Shown: positions 2,605-39,256 of the stretch, one piece after another
How the letters are laid out: every line of letters starts with the position of its first letter
Position numbering within the stretch: the stretch's first letter is position 1
Source: Candidatus Melainabacteria bacterium
GTDB taxonomy: Bacteria > Actinomycetota > Actinomycetes > Mycobacteriales > CAJCIY01
Direction: 5' to 3'
Assembly: GCA_903970495.1 (NCBI GenBank)
Contig: CAJCIY010000276.1
Span: 1 to 40,572 of the forward strand
DNA: 40,572 nt
Notes under the pieces: generated by a model
Databases searched by the model: none
What the model was told of the DNA's origin: nothing
Seen by the model: only the letters and a program-made list of their open reading frames with translations
Program-made: the position numbers and the translations under genes

Positions 2605-3600
2605 ATGACCGTCGTGACACCCGACGTGACCGAGCGCCCGGACGAGATCCCGGGGCGCAGCAGCGGGATCGCCGGGGACGCGCAGGATCCCTTCGCGCCG
2701 GACATCCGGCCGATGTGGGAGCAGGTCCTCCTCTACGTGTTCGTGATCGGCCCGTTCCTCGCTCTCGCCGCGGGCATCGCGCTCGCCGCCACCACCAGCT
2801 TCGGCCCGACCTGGCTCGACCTCGGCCTCGCCGTCGGCTTCTACTGCCTGACCGGGCTCGGCATCACCTGCGGCTTCCACCGCTTCTTCACCCACGGCAG
2901 CTTCAAGGCCAACCGCGGCCTGAAGATCGCGCTCGCGCTCAGCGGCTCGATGGCCGTCCAGGGGCCGGTCATCCGCTGGGTCGCCGACCACCGCAAGCAC
3001 CACGCGTTCTCCGACCGCGAGGGCGACCCGCACTCCCCGTGGCGCTTCGGCACCGGCCCGAGGGCGCTGACCAAGGGCCTGTGGTGGGCGCACTCCGGCT
3101 GGCTCTTCGACCGCGAGCAGACCAACAAGGACAAGTACGCGCCCGACCTGGTCGCCGACCCGGACATCGCGCTGATCCACAAGCTGTTCGGCGTGACCAC
3201 GCTGGCCACGCTCGTCGGCCCGATGCTGCTCGGCGGCGTGATCACGATGTCCTGGCACGGCGCCCTCTCGGCGCTGCTGTGGGCCGGCGCGGTCCGGATC
3301 TTCCTGCTCCACCACGTCACCTGGTCGGTCAACTCGGTCTGCCACGTGTTCGGCGAGCGCCCGTTCGCCACCCGCGACAAGGCCGCCAACGTGTGGCCGC
3401 TCGCGATCGTGAGCTTCGGCGAGAGCTGGCACAACCTGCACCACGCCGACCCGACGAGCGCGCGGCACGGTGTCGACAAGGGCCAGATCGACCTGACCGC
3501 CGAGCTGATCCGCGGCTTCGAGAAGGTCGGCTGGGCGCGCGACGTCCGCTGGCCCAAGGCGGAGCGGCTCGACAAGCGGCGCGTGCGCGCCGGCGTCTGA
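2605..3600 (+). CDS. Acyl-CoA / fatty acid delta-9-type desaturase (membrane di-iron)
   Basis: A 331-residue integral membrane desaturase that introduces a double bond in a fatty acyl chain. All three histidine boxes are present: His92-X4-His97 (HRFFTH), His129-X2-His132-His133 (HRKHH) and His276-X2-His279-His280 (HNLHH). An extra His236-His237 motif also occurs, as in the stearoyl-CoA desaturase class. Hydrophobic stretches at about 41-62, 71-90, 195-218 and 220-237 give the usual four-helix layout. The ATG at 2605 follows AGGAGG at 2594-2599; the frame is open much further upstream, but that part is antisense to the regulator gene. Control by the divergent PucR protein is likely from position alone. 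Confidence 0.93.
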   Translation: MTVVTPDVTERPDEIPGRSSGIAGDAQDPFAPDIRPMWEQVLLYVFVIGPFLALAAGIALAATTSFGPTWLDLGLAVGFYCLTGLGITCGFHRFFTHGSFKANRGLKIALALSGSMAVQGPVIRWVADHRKHHAFSDREGDPHSPWRFGTGPRALTKGLWWAHSGWLFDREQTNKDKYAPDLVADPDIALIHKLFGVTTLATLVGPMLLGGVITMSWHGALSALLWAGAVRIFLLHHVTWSVNSVCHVFGERPFATRDKAANVWPLAIVSFGESWHNLHHADPTSARHGVDKGQIDLTAELIRGFEKVGWARDVRWPKAERLDKRRVRAGV

Positions 3601-32748: not shown

Positions 32749-34971
32749 GTGAACGACCGCGCCCGCCAGCGGGTGTTCGTGCTGCGGGTCCTCGTCGTCT
32801 CGCTCGTCGCGACGCTGCTCGGCCGGCTCTGGTACGTGCAGGTGCTGTCCGGTCCCACGTACCGCGCGCAGGCGGCCTCCAACGAGCAGCGGCAGCTGGT
32901 CACACCGGCGCCGCGCGGCGAGATCGTCGACGACGAGGGACGGGTCCTCGCCGACGACAGCTACGAGTACGTCGTCACCGTCAACGAGGACACCCTCGCC
33001 GCACAGAAGGACAAGGGCCTCGTCGTGCTGCGGCGGCTCGCGCCGATCGTGGGGGAGTCGGTCGCCGACCTGCAGGTCAAGACGCGGCTCTGCGGCGACA
33101 AGAACGCCCAGGGTCAGGTCTACCGGTCGCCCGACTGCTACACCGGCTCGCCCTACGAGCCCATCCCGGTCAAGGCGTTCGCGCCGACCGACTCCGCCGC
33201 GCTGACCAGGGCGCTCGTCGTGGTCGAGCGGTCCGAGCTCTTCCCCGGCGTCGCGATCTCCGAGCAGCAGGTCCGCCAGTACCCGTACGGGTCGGTGGCC
33301 GGGCAGGAGCTGGGCTACCTCGAGGCCATCAGCGCGCAGCAGCTCACCGAGAAGCAGTACGCGGGCTACCAGCCGACCGACCTCGTCGGGCAGACCGGCC
33401 TGGAGGACGAGTACGACAAGGAGCTGCGCGGCACCGACTCGGTCAAGACGGTCAGCGTCGACGCGACCGGCAAGGTGACCGGCACGATCAGCCAGACGCA
33501 GCCGGTGCCGGGCGACACGCTCGTGACCAACATCGACGCCGGGCTGCAGCAGGCGGTCGAGAAGGAGCTCGCGAACGGCATCAAGATCGCGCACTCGCAG
33601 AACGGGTTCGGCACCACCGCAGCCGCGGTCGTGATGAACGTCCGCACCGGCGCGGTCCTGGCGCTCGCGAGCCTGCCGGACTACGACCCGAACGAGTTCA
33701 CCGGCGGCATCTCGACGGCGAACTACGCAGCGCTGACCGACCCGGACGCGTCGAACCCGCTGATCCCCCGGGCGTACCAGGCCGACTTCCCACCGGGGTC
33801 GACGTTCAAGATCTCCTCGGCGTCGGCGATCCTGCAGAACCAGATCGACGGCGCGACGCCGACGTCGCTCTCGACGTGTGGGGCGTCGTACACGGCCGGC
33901 GACGAGGCCTTCCACAACTTCGAGGGCGAGGCGCTGGGCGACATCGACCTGCTCACCGCCATCCAGCACTCCTGCGACACGTTCTTCTACAAGTTCGCCT
34001 ACGACGCCTGGGTCCGCGACGGCGGCCCGCGGCTCACGACCGCGCAGCTCGCCAAGCCCGACCAGCAGCTGTTCGTGAAGATGGCCAAGGCCTACGGCTA
34101 CGGCCAGGCCACCGGCATCGACCTGCCGAACGAGTTCACCGGCGTGCTCGACGACCGGAAGCAGACCGCCGCCGCTGCCGCGTACGCGCACCAGCAGGCC
34201 TGCCTCGGCGCGCACCAACACCCGACCGACCCGGCGCGGGAGGCCGCCGACGCGAAGACCTGCGCGGTCCCGCTGAACCAGGCCGAGGCGCTGCAGGCCG
34301 GTGACGCACTCGACTTCGCGATCGGGCAGGGCGGCCAGGTCGACGTGACGGTGCTGCAGCAGGCGGTGGCCTACGCCGCCGTCGCCAACGGCGGCACCCG
34401 CGTCGTACCCGAGATCGCGAAGGCCTTCATCTCCTCGACGGGCAAGGTCACGACGGTCAAGCCGAAGACGGCCGGCAAGGTCCCGGTCAGCGCCGCGAAC
34501 CTCGCCGCGATCCGGACCGGCTTCACCGAGGTCGTGCAGGACCCCGGCGGCACCGGCACCGGCGCCGGCTTCCCGGCGCAGCTCGACGTCGCCGGCAAGA
34601 CCGGCACCGCCGACGTCGCCGCGACCGGACCGCTGGCGGACCAGCCCGAGTCGTGGTTCGTGTCGATGGAGCCGGTCAGCGACCCGCAGTACGTCGTGGC
34701 CGTGATGATCGAGCACGGTGGCCAGGGCGCGTTCGCCGCGGGCGAGACCAACGCCAACATCCTCAAGGACATGTACGGCCTCGGCGGCCACAAGGCCGTC
34801 TTCCCCGGCGGCAAGGTCCCGGCCACGCTGCCGAAGATCTCCGCGACCGGCGCCATCACGCCGCCGCAGAAGGGGATCATCGGCGTGACGAAGGAGCCCG
34901 GCCAGCCCGGCGGCACGCCGGTGATCGTCGCCGCCGACGGGACCGTCACCATCGGGCGGGAGAACGACTGA
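32749..34971 (+). CDS. mrdA: Penicillin-binding protein 2 (peptidoglycan transpeptidase of elongation)
   Basis: A 740-residue class B penicillin-binding protein that cross-links lateral wall peptidoglycan with RodA. The N-terminal membrane helix is at about 10-30; the dimerisation/pedestal domain follows (APRGEIVDDEGRVLA). The transpeptidase motifs are S351-T-F-K354, S408-C-D410 and K617-T-G619. A Gly/Pro-rich tail follows residue 690. The GTG at 32749 is preceded by GGAAGGA, which lies in the 12-bp palindrome CCTTCCGGAAGG (32728-32739). The stop shares a base with the rodA ATG. Confidence 0.95.
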   Translation: MNDRARQRVFVLRVLVVSLVATLLGRLWYVQVLSGPTYRAQAASNEQRQLVTPAPRGEIVDDEGRVLADDSYEYVVTVNEDTLAAQKDKGLVVLRRLAPIVGESVADLQVKTRLCGDKNAQGQVYRSPDCYTGSPYEPIPVKAFAPTDSAALTRALVVVERSELFPGVAISEQQVRQYPYGSVAGQELGYLEAISAQQLTEKQYAGYQPTDLVGQTGLEDEYDKELRGTDSVKTVSVDATGKVTGTISQTQPVPGDTLVTNIDAGLQQAVEKELANGIKIAHSQNGFGTTAAAVVMNVRTGAVLALASLPDYDPNEFTGGISTANYAALTDPDASNPLIPRAYQADFPPGSTFKISSASAILQNQIDGATPTSLSTCGASYTAGDEAFHNFEGEALGDIDLLTAIQHSCDTFFYKFAYDAWVRDGGPRLTTAQLAKPDQQLFVKMAKAYGYGQATGIDLPNEFTGVLDDRKQTAAAAAYAHQQACLGAHQHPTDPAREAADAKTCAVPLNQAEALQAGDALDFAIGQGGQVDVTVLQQAVAYAAVANGGTRVVPEIAKAFISSTGKVTTVKPKTAGKVPVSAANLAAIRTGFTEVVQDPGGTGTGAGFPAQLDVAGKTGTADVAATGPLADQPESWFVSMEPVSDPQYVVAVMIEHGGQGAFAAGETNANILKDMYGLGGHKAVFPGGKVPATLPKISATGAITPPQKGIIGVTKEPGQPGGTPVIVAADGTVTIGREND

Positions 34972-36161
34972 TGGCCGAGCTGTCCACCCCGCGCCAGGCG
35001 CCGCGGTTCGCGCCGCGGCGCAGCGCCACGCGCGACAGCATCGACGACCAGGTGCGCCGCCTCGACTGGGTGCTGCAGGTCGCCGTGCTCGGCATGGTGA
35101 TCATCGGTGCGCTGCTGGTGTGGGCGGCGACCAAGGACGCCGAGGCCCGCGCCGGCGGCGACCCCAACAGCTTCCTGAAGCACTCGATCCTCAACGCCGG
35201 CATCGGGCTCGTGCTCGGCGCGCTGACGGCGCGGATCGACTACCGGGCGCTCCGGGCGTACGCGCCGATCCTCTACGTCGCCTCCGTGCTCGGACTGCTC
35301 GTCGTCCTCTCGCCGCTGGGCGCGACGATCAACGGGGCGCACTCGTGGATCGTGCTGCCCGCCGGCTTCGAGCTGCAGCCCGCCGAGTTCGCGAAGGTCG
35401 CGCTCGTCGTCGGGATGGCGATGATCCTGGCCGAGCGGCGAGACGGCGAGAGCGGGCCGCGGGACAAGGACGTCCTGCTCGTGCTGGCGATCGCCGCCGT
35501 GCCGATGGCGCTGATCCTGCTGCAGCCCGACTTCGGCTCGATGATGGTCTTCACCTTCATCGTGCTCGGCATCATCGGGGTCTCCGGTGCGCCGGCGCGG
35601 TGGACGATCGGGCTGATCGTCGCCGGGGTCCTGTTCGGCGCGGCCATCCTCGGGTTCCACCTGCTCAAGCCGTACCAGGAGGCGCGGCTCACGAACTTCG
35701 CCCACTCGAGCTCGAACACCGGCACGACCGGCTACAACGTGGCGCAGGCCAAGACGGCGATCGGCGACGGCGGCATCCTCGGGCAGGGCCTGTTCGACGG
35801 CTCGCAGACCAACGGCGGGTACGTCCCGGAGCAGCAGACCGACTTCGTCTTCACCGTCTCCGGCGAGGAGCTCGGCTTCGCCGGGTCGGCGCTCCTGCTG
35901 CTGTTCCTGCTGACGGTGCTGTGGCGGGGGACGCGCATCGCCATGAGAGCCGACGATCCCTTCGGCCAGCTGGTCGCCGTGGGGATCGTGTCGTGGTTCG
36001 CGTTCCAGAGCTTCATCAACATCGGGATGACGCTCGGCATCATGCCGGTGACCGGGCTGCCGCTGATCTTCGTGTCGTACGGCGGGTCGTCGATGTTCGC
36101 GAACATGATCGGCATCGGGCTGCTGCAGAACGTCCACCTGCGCAGCTCTGAGCGCCTCTAG
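34971..36161 (+). CDS. rodA: Rod shape-determining protein RodA (SEDS glycosyltransferase)
   Basis: A 396-residue SEDS-family peptidoglycan polymerase with about ten membrane helices. Conserved blocks are ELQPAEFAK, LQPDFGSMMVF, the extracellular loop with TGYNVAQAKTAIGDGG, PEQQTDFVF and SYGGSSM. In RodA the active-site Asp lies in the extracellular loop between helices 7 and 8; PEQQTDF matches that region. The ATG overlaps the mrdA TGA by one base. This is the last gene of the mre cluster; a palindromic repeat begins 49 bp after the stop. Confidence 0.95.
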   Translation: MAELSTPRQAPRFAPRRSATRDSIDDQVRRLDWVLQVAVLGMVIIGALLVWAATKDAEARAGGDPNSFLKHSILNAGIGLVLGALTARIDYRALRAYAPILYVASVLGLLVVLSPLGATINGAHSWIVLPAGFELQPAEFAKVALVVGMAMILAERRDGESGPRDKDVLLVLAIAAVPMALILLQPDFGSMMVFTFIVLGIIGVSGAPARWTIGLIVAGVLFGAAILGFHLLKPYQEARLTNFAHSSSNTGTTGYNVAQAKTAIGDGGILGQGLFDGSQTNGGYVPEQQTDFVFTVSGEELGFAGSALLLLFLLTVLWRGTRIAMRADDPFGQLVAVGIVSWFAFQSFINIGMTLGIMPVTGLPLIFVSYGGSSMFANMIGIGLLQNVHLRSSERL

Positions 36162-36209
36162 CCCGCTCCGCCCGCTCGTCCGTCCGCCTGCTGCAACGCC
36201 GGCTGCGTT

Positions 36210-36253
36210 CGACGTTGTGCACACGTACTCGGCGGTATCCGTGCACAAGGTCG
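36210..36253. repeat. 44-bp palindromic repeat, copy 1 (left of the AbiEi-DUF559 gene)
   Basis: CGACGTTGTGCAC (36210-36222), 18-nt centre, GTGCACAAGGTCG (36241-36253). Arms pair with one mismatch. With flanks (36205-36253) it matches copy 2 at 44 of 49 positions, in the same orientation. A further half-site AGGTTGTGCACA lies at 36263-36274. It could act as a rodA terminator, a regulator site or a mobile-element end. Confidence 0.85.
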
Positions 36254-36324
36254 GACACCTCCAGGTTGTGCACAGATGTGACCGCGCAGCGCCGCGGCCG
36301 GTCGCCGCGAGCGAGCCTGGCGGC

Positions 36325-37212
36325 GTGGAGCGCATCATTGCCGCGGTCGAGGGCTTTGCCGCCGCTCAGCACGGAGTCGTCAGCGCAGAGCAGGCCCGAC
36401 GCCTCGGTCTCCCCCGACCATGGCCGGTGCGCCTGGCCGACGCTGGTCGGTGGCAACGGATGCACCGAGGCATCTATCGCCCGAACCCTGTCGGGCACCC
36501 CTCCCCGGCGACGGTCGGGCACGCTGCCCTGCTGTTCGCGGGTGGGGGTCTGCGGACGCGAGGTGCCCTGGCCGGCCCGTGTGCTGCCGCTCTCCTGGGG
36601 CTCGATGACCGCCAGGCGCGGGCCCGTCCCCAGGTGGTCCTCGGCCCCGACGTGCACCGGTTGCAGCCGCGCGGACTGACGTACCGCTTCGAGGTGCTCT
36701 CAGCGGCGGAGGTGGCCAGCGTCGGTGGTCTCGCGTGCACGTCTCCCGCCCGCACCCTGCAGGACGTGGCGACCACGTCGACCGCCGCGGACCTGCTCGT
36801 CCTCGTCGACGCCGGCTTGTGCCGCGGGCTGGGGTTCGTCGGGACATCGGGCTCTCCCGACCTGCGGTGGGCGCTGGAGAACGGCGACGCGGCGAGCGAG
36901 TCCGCCTTCGAGTCGCTGGTGCGCGCGGAGCTGCTCGCGGCGGGGCTGCCGCGCCCGCAGCTGCAGCACGTCGTACGTCTCGGGGGCGGGGCGACCTACC
37001 GGCTGGATCTCGCGTGGCCGGACCTCCGGCTCGCCGTGGAGGCCGACGGAGCAGCCGTGCACGCGAACGCGTCGGCGCTCCGCAACGACCTGCGACGGCA
37101 GAACGCGCTGGTCGCGGCGGGATGGACGCTGCTCCGCTTCACGTGGGCCGACCTGGGGCGAATCGCCGCCCCGGTCCGGGATGCACTGCGCCGAGCAGGA
37201 CGCGCCGCGTGA
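36325..37212 (+). CDS. AbiEi-type antitoxin-domain protein with C-terminal DUF559 (Vsr-like) putative nuclease
   Basis: A 295-residue two-domain protein. The N-terminal winged-helix AbiEi-like domain (about 1-55) reads AAAQHGVVSAEQARRLGL and RLADAGRWQRMHRGIYRP. A middle region carries CTSPARTLQDVA. The C-terminal DUF559 domain (about 190-280) has a PD-(D/E)XK pattern: Glu196, Asp228 (RLDLAWP), Glu239-X-Asp241 (VEADG), then RRQNALVAAGWTLLRFTWADL. No AbiEii toxin gene is adjacent, so this is a solitary gene. The start is GTG 36325; the ATG at 36217 lies inside the repeat. It is inserted between rodA and a radical SAM gene and bracketed by two 44-bp palindromes. DNA binding and cleavage are inferred. 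Confidence 0.85.
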   Translation: MERIIAAVEGFAAAQHGVVSAEQARRLGLPRPWPVRLADAGRWQRMHRGIYRPNPVGHPSPATVGHAALLFAGGGLRTRGALAGPCAAALLGLDDRQARARPQVVLGPDVHRLQPRGLTYRFEVLSAAEVASVGGLACTSPARTLQDVATTSTAADLLVLVDAGLCRGLGFVGTSGSPDLRWALENGDAASESAFESLVRAELLAAGLPRPQLQHVVRLGGGATYRLDLAWPDLRLAVEADGAAVHANASALRNDLRRQNALVAAGWTLLRFTWADLGRIAAPVRDALRRAGRAA

Positions 37213-37243
37213 GGGGTCGCAGCGCGCACAACGTCGAAGCGTT

Positions 37244-37287
37244 CGACCTTGTGCACACGTACCGACCGGTATCCGTGCACAAGGTCG
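37244..37287. repeat. 44-bp palindromic repeat, copy 2 (right of the AbiEi-DUF559 gene)
   Basis: CGACCTTGTGCAC (37244-37256) and GTGCACAAGGTCG (37275-37287) are perfect arms, 14 bp if 37243 and 37288 are included. The centre holds a second dyad TACCG-AC-CGGTA (37260-37271). Just upstream, GCACAACGTCGAA (37226-37238) is the exact reverse complement of the left arm of copy 1. It begins 31 bp after the AbiEi-DUF559 stop. Confidence 0.88.
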
Positions 37288-37336
37288 ATTCCGGCGCGGT
37301 TCGGCCCGAGGCGGCCGGGTCCGGCGCGGCGGCACG

Positions 37337-37348: not shown

Positions 37349-39256
37349 ATGGCCGGACAGAGCGTGTACGCGGCCCTCGAGCCACTCCTGCCGCGTGTCA
37401 CCAAGCCGATCCAGTACGTCGGCGGCGAGCTCAACGCGCAGACCAAGCCGTGGGACTGCGGCGGCGACGACACCGTCCGATGGGCGCTGCTCTACCCCGA
37501 CGCGTACGAGGTCGGGCTGCCCAACCAGGGACTGCAGATCCTGTACGAGGTGCTCAACGAGGACCCCCGCACGCTCGCCGAGCGGACGTACAGCGTCTGG
37601 CCGGACCTCGAGGCGCTCATGCGCGAGGCGGGCGTCCCGCAGTTCACGGTCGACGGCCACCGCCCGGTGGGGGACTTCGACCTGCTCGGGGTGAGCTTCG
37701 CGACCGAGCTCGGCTACACCAACCTGCTGTCCGCCCTCGACCTCGCGGCGATCCCGCTGCACAGCGCCGACCGCACCGAGGCGCACCCGATCGTGGTGGC
37801 CGGCGGGCACGCGGCGTTCAACCCCGAGCCGGTGGCCGACTTCATCGACGCGGCCGCGCTCGGCGACGGCGAGCAGGCCGTCAAGACGATCACCGAGGTC
37901 GTCCGCGCCCACCGGCACCTGGGCCGCGAGGCGACCCTCACCGCGCTCGCCAAGACGCCCGGCGTCTACGTCCCGAGCCGCTACGACGTCGAGTACCTGC
38001 CGGACGGCCGCATCCGCCGCGTGGTCCCCAACCGCGAGGGCGTCCCGTGGCGGGTCGCCAAGAACACGGTTACCGACCTGGACGAGTGGCCGTACCCGAA
38101 GCAGCCGCTGGTGCCGCTGGCCGAGACCGTCCACGAGCGGATGAGCGTCGAGATCTTCCGCGGCTGCACTCGCGGCTGCCGCTTCTGCCAGGCCGGGATG
38201 ATCACGCGTCCGGTGCGCGAGCGCAGCCTGCAGACCGTCGGGAAGATGGTGGCCGACGGTCTGGCCAAGACCGGCTTCTCCGAGGTCGGCCTGCTGAGCC
38301 TGAGCAGCGCCGACCACTCCGAGATCGACCAGATCGCCACCCAGCTCGCCGACCGGTACGAGGAGTCCAAGACCTCGCTCAGCCTGCCGAGCACCCGGGT
38401 CGACGCCTTCAACGTCACCCTCGCCAACGAGCTCAGCCGCAGCGGCCGGCGAAGTGGTCTGACCTTCGCGCCCGAGGGCGGCAGCGAGCGGCTCCGCCGA
38501 GTGATCAACAAGCAGGTGTCCGAAGAGGACCTGATCCGGACGACCACGACCGCGTACGGCGCCGGCTGGCAGCAGGTGAAGCTCTACTTCATGTGCGGCC
38601 TGCCGACCGAGACCGACGAGGACGTGCTCGGCATCGCCGCGATGGCCAAGGAGGTCATCCGCCAGGGACGCGAGGCGGCCGGCCGCCCGGTCCGCGTCAC
38701 CGTGAGCATCGGCGGCTTCGTGCCCAAGCCGCACACCCCGTTCCAGTGGGCCGCGCAGGCCGACCCCGACGTGATCGACGCGCGGCTGGCGATGCTGCGG
38801 CAGAGCGTGGGCCGCGACAAGGCGATCGGCTTCCGCTACCACGACGGCAAGCCCGGTCAGGTCGAGGGGCTGCTCGCCCGCGGCGACCGCCGGGTCGGCG
38901 CCGTGATCGAGGCGGTGTGGCGCGACGGCGGCCGGTTCGACGGCTGGTCCGAGCACTTCTCGTACGACCGCTGGATGACCCAGGCAGCGGCCGTCGGCAT
39001 CGACGTCGCCTGGTACACCACACGCGAGCGGGGCGAGACCGAGGTGCTCCCGTGGGACCACCTCGACGCCGGCCTGGACAAGGACTGGCTGTGGGCCGAC
39101 TGGCAGGACGCCCTCGCGGCGGCCGAGGGCGGCGGCGACGGCGTCGAGGACTGCCGCTGGACGCCGTGCTTCGACTGCGGTGTCTGCCCCGGCCTCGACC
39201 TCGAGATCGAGCAGGGCCCGACCGGCCGGCAGCTGCTGCCCCTGTCCCCGGTCTGA
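37349..39256 (+). CDS. B12-binding-type radical SAM protein, TIGR03960 family
   Basis: A 635-residue radical SAM protein. The N-terminal part (about 35-200) resembles a cobalamin-binding-like fold (LLYPDAYEVGLPNQGLQIL, then VAGGHAAFNPEP). The radical SAM domain (about 262-520) has the [4Fe-4S] motif Cys273-X3-Cys277-X2-Cys280 in FRGCTRGCRFCQAG. The C-terminus carries CRWTPCFDCGVC, a possible second metal site. The substrate is unknown. The ATG at 37349 follows a TACGCT -10 by six bases. The stop overlaps the start of its partner by one base. This pair upstream of RNase E/G is common in actinobacteria. Confidence 0.92.
   Translation: MAGQSVYAALEPLLPRVTKPIQYVGGELNAQTKPWDCGGDDTVRWALLYPDAYEVGLPNQGLQILYEVLNEDPRTLAERTYSVWPDLEALMREAGVPQFTVDGHRPVGDFDLLGVSFATELGYTNLLSALDLAAIPLHSADRTEAHPIVVAGGHAAFNPEPVADFIDAAALGDGEQAVKTITEVVRAHRHLGREATLTALAKTPGVYVPSRYDVEYLPDGRIRRVVPNREGVPWRVAKNTVTDLDEWPYPKQPLVPLAETVHERMSVEIFRGCTRGCRFCQAGMITRPVRERSLQTVGKMVADGLAKTGFSEVGLLSLSSADHSEIDQIATQLADRYEESKTSLSLPSTRVDAFNVTLANELSRSGRRSGLTFAPEGGSERLRRVINKQVSEEDLIRTTTTAYGAGWQQVKLYFMCGLPTETDEDVLGIAAMAKEVIRQGREAAGRPVRVTVSIGGFVPKPHTPFQWAAQADPDVIDARLAMLRQSVGRDKAIGFRYHDGKPGQVEGLLARGDRRVGAVIEAVWRDGGRFDGWSEHFSYDRWMTQAAAVGIDVAWYTTRERGETEVLPWDHLDAGLDKDWLWADWQDALAAAEGGGDGVEDCRWTPCFDCGVCPGLDLEIEQGPTGRQLLPLSPV

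Follow-up and report, generated by a model that had tools for sequence, protein, structure and literature searches.

The locus raises the question of why a solitary AbiEi-DUF559 gene should be enclosed by two copies of the same palindrome. We know of no function for AbiEi-DUF559 genes, which are numerous (up to 14 were detected in one genome). The gene lies in the window, i.e. the whole stretch of 40,572 nt that was analysed. We consider it probable (roughly 0.6) that the locus represents a unit that recurs, consisting of an AbiEi-DUF559 gene, its cognate palindromes and solo copies of these, which resembles the REP/RAYT system with another enzyme. The features of the locus are as follows.

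34971-36161, plus strand: rodA, the left neighbour; its stop codon lies about 48 nt before repeat copy A (ORF list, gene-end analysis).
36208-36254, plus strand: repeat copy A, an imperfect palindrome with two inverted half-sites CGACGTTGTGCAC / GTGCACAAGGTCG.
36261-36273, plus strand: degenerate third half-site of copy A, CCAGGTTGTGCAC, on the gene side.
36325-37212, plus strand: AbiEi-DUF559 gene (Pfam/PADLOC; conservation in 99 homologues).
37224-37236, minus strand: degenerate third half-site of copy B, facing the gene and 11 nt past its stop codon.
37242-37288, plus strand: repeat copy B, a palindrome in the same orientation as copy A.
37349-39256, plus strand: radical SAM gene, the right neighbour.

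The sequence-only reading had placed an AbiEi-type and DUF559 protein between rodA and the radical SAM gene, and the Pfam and PADLOC matches bore this out, with the gene now set at 36325-37212. The open frame extends back to 36217, a start inside palindrome copy A; GTG 36325 is the probable start because it is the first one (295 aa) with a good match to the homologues. The protein carries a winged-helix/AbiEi module at about residues 1-170 (the AbiEi-type winged helix with the AbiEi C-terminal half), fused to a DUF559/MTES_1575 PD-(D/E)XK-like nuclease module at about residues 190-290. Pfam gave 31.9 bits for AbiEi_4 (cut-off 25) and 23.9 bits for DUF559 (cut-off 20.6), along with a match near threshold to MTES_1575 REase, and the PADLOC AbiEi models matched residues 10-170 (E 1.7e-20). 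E196, D228, E239, D241 and H246 were conserved in 91-100% of the 99 homologues, the first four being the acidic active-site residues of a PD-(D/E)XK/Vsr-like nuclease. The predicted structure (mean pLDDT 43) was poor outside a strand-rich core at the C-terminus, and the N-terminal part could not be used; the best matches of this low-confidence model were TnsA, Cap4 and MspJI (E ~0.04).

No gene for an AbiEii nucleotidyltransferase toxin adjoins the window gene, as had been claimed from the sequence. Toxin-antitoxin pairs that defend against phages are known to contain the AbiEi fold; this, the PADLOC AbiEi match and a GC3 lower than in the adjoining genes would suit a selfish nuclease or defence gene, with a nuclease acting elsewhere and palindromes that protect or insulate it, e.g. 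as barriers, or as ends for recombination in horizontal transfer. Such a gene does not predict solo palindromes far from itself, and we regard this explanation as very improbable.

Two matching palindromes in the same orientation had been noticed around the gene. A repeat search of the window recovered them as a pair of 49 nt each (36205-36253 and 37239-37287), 90% identical (44/49), and the gapped repeat pattern occurred twice in the window vs 0/100 shuffles. The hairpin of copy B had a z of -4.2, and 0/200 shuffles equalled its fold; copy A is a mismatched, weaker palindrome (z -0.2 with flanks). The half-sites CGACSTTGTGCAC alternate in orientation, with steps of 31 nt (sometimes 32) and then 20 nt, start to start. 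Each bracketing copy extends into a longer array, with the third half-site facing the gene.

The check suggested at the outset, a genome-wide search for the 44-bp repeat against the DUF559 genes, was run on the genome's own assembly, which is 87% complete and comprises 2.6 Mb in 350 contigs. A pattern search found exactly 14 members (control 0) and a covariance model gave the same number (E <= 6e-5; next match 0.36); 12 of the 14 lie away from any DUF559 gene. Copy A differs from the solo copy on contig C96 at three positions and from copy B at five. Across the family the arms are almost invariant and the centres are variable yet complementary: the observed energy was reached by 11/500 pairings dealt anew and by 0/300 letter shuffles. 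Two subtypes were seen. The CAC-type forms arrays with three or four half-sites and stands mostly between tandem genes; the CAG-type (C46, C75, C110, C151, C256) is a single hairpin and stands mostly where genes converge. At its fourth base the half-site always has C or G, and the arms are often mismatched there.

The strict repeat pattern was absent from 84,980 GTDB species and 398 other genomes of the order, a looser pattern was absent from 120 genomes of the order and from viral contigs, and the window's own repeat was found at none of the DUF559 loci of relatives. The repeat sequences are therefore private to the lineage. Plasmids gave no match to the cassette, and no viral protein relatives were found. 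A known RNA family was set aside as an identity for the repeat, as nothing came near the Rfam threshold.

All 14 copies are intergenic and 3' of a stop codon, within about 120 nt and mostly within 50 (the copy on C75 is poorly resolved). At least four stand between clearly convergent genes, and none was resolved as divergent. The genes beside the copies have housekeeping roles (rodA, ispF, priA, pckG, methylmalonyl-CoA mutase, Ppx/GppA, UDG and others). These positions would fit ordinary host terminators, i.e. lineage-specific hairpins at gene ends, with rodA and the DUF559 gene each ending in one. For mycobacteria and other bacteria, hairpins that lack a U-tract and lie within 50-80 nt of stop codons have been proposed as terminators (PMC12288462, PMC8355165). 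The copies do place a hairpin shortly after the stop codon, and solo copies may act as terminators where they stand. However, the 15 nt beyond each copy hold only 0-4 T, so there is no U-tract, and 14 copies are few for a 2.6-Mb assembly. The reading as terminators that merely happen to stand beside the gene came from the own-genome data and was dropped once the homologue loci were compared.

Gene-end repeats without a DUF559 gene had been named beforehand as speaking against a cassette. They did occur (12/14 copies), but the idea survives, as a REP/RAYT-like system predicts such scatter: there the enzyme gene is REP-flanked while most REPs lie elsewhere (PMC2817692). With this layout, what has to be asked is whether repeats of their own also surround the other AbiEi-DUF559 genes.

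We therefore scored 99 DUF559 loci from 36 genomes of the order by aligning the 300 nt upstream of the gene locally with the 300 nt downstream and taking the best match, with a threshold of >=20. Gene calls came from a GC3 heuristic, and the start codons are approximate. In most homologue loci of a first set, which was then enlarged by fetching 60 loci, the match was far above the cross-locus null, and the alignments of the matching flanks were mostly long palindromes. The gene was bracketed in 62/99 loci at a score of >=20 and in 53/99 at >=23; counted by genome, 29/36 had at least one bracketed gene. No bracket was found at the threshold of >=20 in 37/99 loci, two of them in the own genome (C123 and C22, of its three other DUF559 homologues).

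The controls were drawn from a single genome and from conserved loci, and most of them are not accessory genes. In 1.2 Mb of genome G033, with its DUF559 genes set aside, 3/805 other genes were bracketed. Among 553 genes in other loci five matched at score 20, and these comprised two other genes, one DUF559 gene found blind (in a Geodermatophilaceae MAG) and two overlapping frames of the DUF559 locus on C156 of the own genome. The Fisher value of 1e-65 for 62/99 vs 3/805 treats the loci as more independent than they are, some being orthologous. The only non-DUF559 controls with matching flanks were G033:C1 2452169-2453533, 2169313-2169882 and 2117027-2117818, L103:643-2571 and L084:6806-7315; the first, which encodes 454 aa and scored 83, is perhaps an insertion sequence.

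The brackets of the homologues have a fixed geometry: from the end of the upstream copy to the start codon the median distance is 52 nt (IQR 41-65), and the downstream copy starts at -10 nt (IQR -16 to -1) relative to the gene end, overlapping the stop codon. Their hairpins had a median z of -5.5 and 41/53 beat all shuffles, compared with -0.6 and 1/53 for control upstream segments.

Each bracketed paralogue has its own repeat, even within one genome. Genome G006 holds six bracketed paralogues with six unrelated repeats (scores of 32-77 for a gene's own pair, at most 10 across pairs), and paralogue-private repeats were also found in G042, G015, G044, G047 and the window's own genome. Protein similarity and repeat similarity were correlated (Mantel r 0.39, 0/2000), a value that reflects in part vertical inheritance, several pairs being orthologous sites. 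In a partial test the correlation was strongest for residues 71-185 (0/1000), and the nuclease half (67/1000) and residues 1-70 (97/1000) did not carry the signal. The winged helix as the best tracker of repeat similarity was unsupported.

Host terminators would predict brackets on other genes, which the control sets did not show; bracketing is specific to DUF559 genes, and another repeat goes with each paralogue within one genome. This explanation, already disfavoured, is now quite unlikely. The cassette proposed in the sequence-only reading is upheld as far as its layout goes, since cognate brackets are a trait of the family and each paralogue has a private repeat. For the order as a whole, it seems to us about an even chance that AbiEi-DUF559 genes with private palindromes form a widespread mobile or self-propagating class, parallel in mechanism to REP/RAYT yet based on a winged-helix protein with a Vsr-like PD-(D/E)XK nuclease, in which DNA-binding specificity and palindrome co-diverge per paralogue.

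Another explanation would keep the REP likeness and detach it from the gene: conventional REP-like elements would have been spread by an unlinked transposase, and the DUF559 gene would be a passenger between two copies. The palindromes do resemble BIMEs in being scattered outside genes and in forming alternating arrays with regular spacing (PMC2817692). Yet no match to a Y1 transposase (PF01797) was found in the own genome, which is 87% complete, so a RAYT could sit in the remaining 13%. Passenger capture also leaves the paralogue-specific bracketing in 29 genomes unexplained, and this alternative is the most improbable of those weighed here. Spread by a RAYT in the own genome, the one incomplete genome searched for it, was rejected, as none was found.

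Dispersal of the palindromes was seen in relatives as well. In G019, for which the homologue search gave one DUF559 gene, copies of the palindrome that brackets this gene lie at some 40 places at least; the two beside the gene match the query to 100 and 97%. The 26 aligned copies all have 61 nt between the arm ends and show compensatory arm changes, and nearly all of them bulge on the same side; 13/14 resolvable copies stand behind at least one gene. G033 and G046 had a few further palindrome copies each, and for two loci of G006 (L350, L322) only the bracketing pair was found within 400 kb.

These data bear on self-regulation without mobility, in which the upstream palindrome is an operator, the downstream one a terminator or second operator, and the solo copies a small regulon or shared 3'-end regulators. 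Both AbiEi and Rv2827c, a homologue from M. tuberculosis, autoregulate by binding inverted repeats in the promoters of their own genes; for Rv2827c these are four alternating repeats within 131 bp of the start codon (PMC7319586). The upstream copy here is at operator distance from the start, and the gene-end position of all 14 own-genome copies would also be compatible. An operator, however, has no need of a second copy past the stop codon. The solo copies stand behind unrelated housekeeping genes, mostly not at promoters, G019 has at least about 40 copies, and paralogue-specific families require some copying process. We consider self-regulation alone unlikely.

In favour of a recurrent unit, cases of a changed place and of an empty site were found. 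Loci L030 and L335 have the repeat and the gene in common (72% nucleotide identity) and unlike outer flanks; from this sequence comparison we infer that the unit has moved to another site. A search of close relatives for an empty rodA-radical SAM site with one repeat copy had been proposed. An empty site for the unit L363 of G042 was found in G033, with 127 nt vs 1176 nt between flanks that are 72% and 81% identical, and it lacks the gene as well as both repeats. It could stem from a deletion. Together with the near-invariant active-site residues, this site supports the cassette. The rodA-radical SAM junction itself was also compared: at 17/64 actinobacterial loci the two genes lie 60-326 nt apart with no DUF559 gene between them.

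Two side observations concern the sites. At L116:4815-5717 (minus strand), in a Geodermatophilaceae MAG, a repeat-flanked AbiEi-DUF559 gene on the other strand immediately precedes the radical SAM gene known from the window; the radical SAM neighbourhood seems to have been targeted twice, here and in the own genome. L349 (G006) and L361 (G051) are orthologous DUF559 sites, and G006 has about 800 extra nt directly 3' of the gene, so these sites may attract insertions.

How such a unit might work can be outlined. By analogy with AbiEi and with Rv2827c, whose four alternating repeats resemble the alternating half-site array of the window, the AbiEi module would bind the inverted half-sites of its own palindrome. 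The PD-(D/E)XK-like module might then nick or cut the palindrome, probably extruded as a hairpin; a Vsr-like domain acting on an imperfect, bulged duplex would, as a conjecture, fit this step. Repair or replication would copy the palindrome into new intergenic places, preferably 3' of genes, where a hairpin would be tolerated or useful as a terminator, and the whole unit would be moved occasionally. Since it lies about 50 nt in front of the start codon, the upstream copy could double as an autoregulatory operator.

Among known systems, REPs under a RAYT usually number more than 100 per genome. The copies here are fewer (14 in the own genome, at least about 40 in G019), their stems are longer, and on inspection they start with TTCGAC within the stem and have no unpaired GTAG or CGTC tag; the enzyme, AbiEi plus PD-(D/E)XK-like, is unrelated to the Y1/HUH transposase of RAYTs. 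What is shared with RAYT/REP (REPIN, BIME) is a lone gene flanked by palindromes of its own, with many further copies scattered outside genes, repeats that differ between species and co-vary with the gene, and arrays that alternate at regular spacing (PMC2817692, PMC3733652). REPs tagged with CGTC are likewise dispersed palindromes lacking a dedicated RAYT (PMC3733652), but they carry the unpaired tag on an 8-9-bp stem and occur in other taxa, and the unit here includes a bracketed gene. The AbiE type IV toxin-antitoxin (AbiEi/Rv2827c) has the same winged helix and AbiEi C-terminal half and inverted repeats upstream of the gene (PMC7319586); the unit here differs in the missing AbiEii gene, the added nuclease domain and the repeats 3' of the gene and elsewhere. 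Solitary Vsr-like/DUF559 nucleases, e.g. Caulobacter VsrA, share the DUF559 PD-(D/E)XK-like domain (PMC12907096), unlike the present case without the AbiEi fusion and the tie to flanking palindromes; no methyltransferase gene adjoins the window gene.

In the open-access literature, outside which most subscription journals lie, we found no paper linking DUF559 or AbiEi-like proteins to such repeats. The recurring layout of gene and palindromes suggests a self-linked genetic unit of a kind not yet described. The tie to private palindromes gives AbiEi-DUF559 genes a testable function, and the unit could account for how species-specific intergenic hairpins arose in GC-rich Actinobacteria. If the reading is true, an unrelated enzyme class joins the very short list of those apparently driving REP-like DNA.

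A second AbiEi-DUF559 gene of the own genome (C156, L044:2420-3285) is bracketed by an unrelated 71-nt palindrome with GCCGAGTGTGACGA arms, at L044:2351-2420 and 3335-3405, with a third copy at 1756-1819 and possible solo arms at L042:8595-8619 and L043:4761-4787. Two arm types, the GCCGAGTG-type and the TTGATCATG-type, recur in otherwise unrelated repeats of many genomes (L009, L019, L322, L332, L338, L343, L346, L359; L023, L030, L032, L310, L314, L335), several of them with CGACACGCC/GGCGTGTCG centres; this suggests repeat subfamilies.
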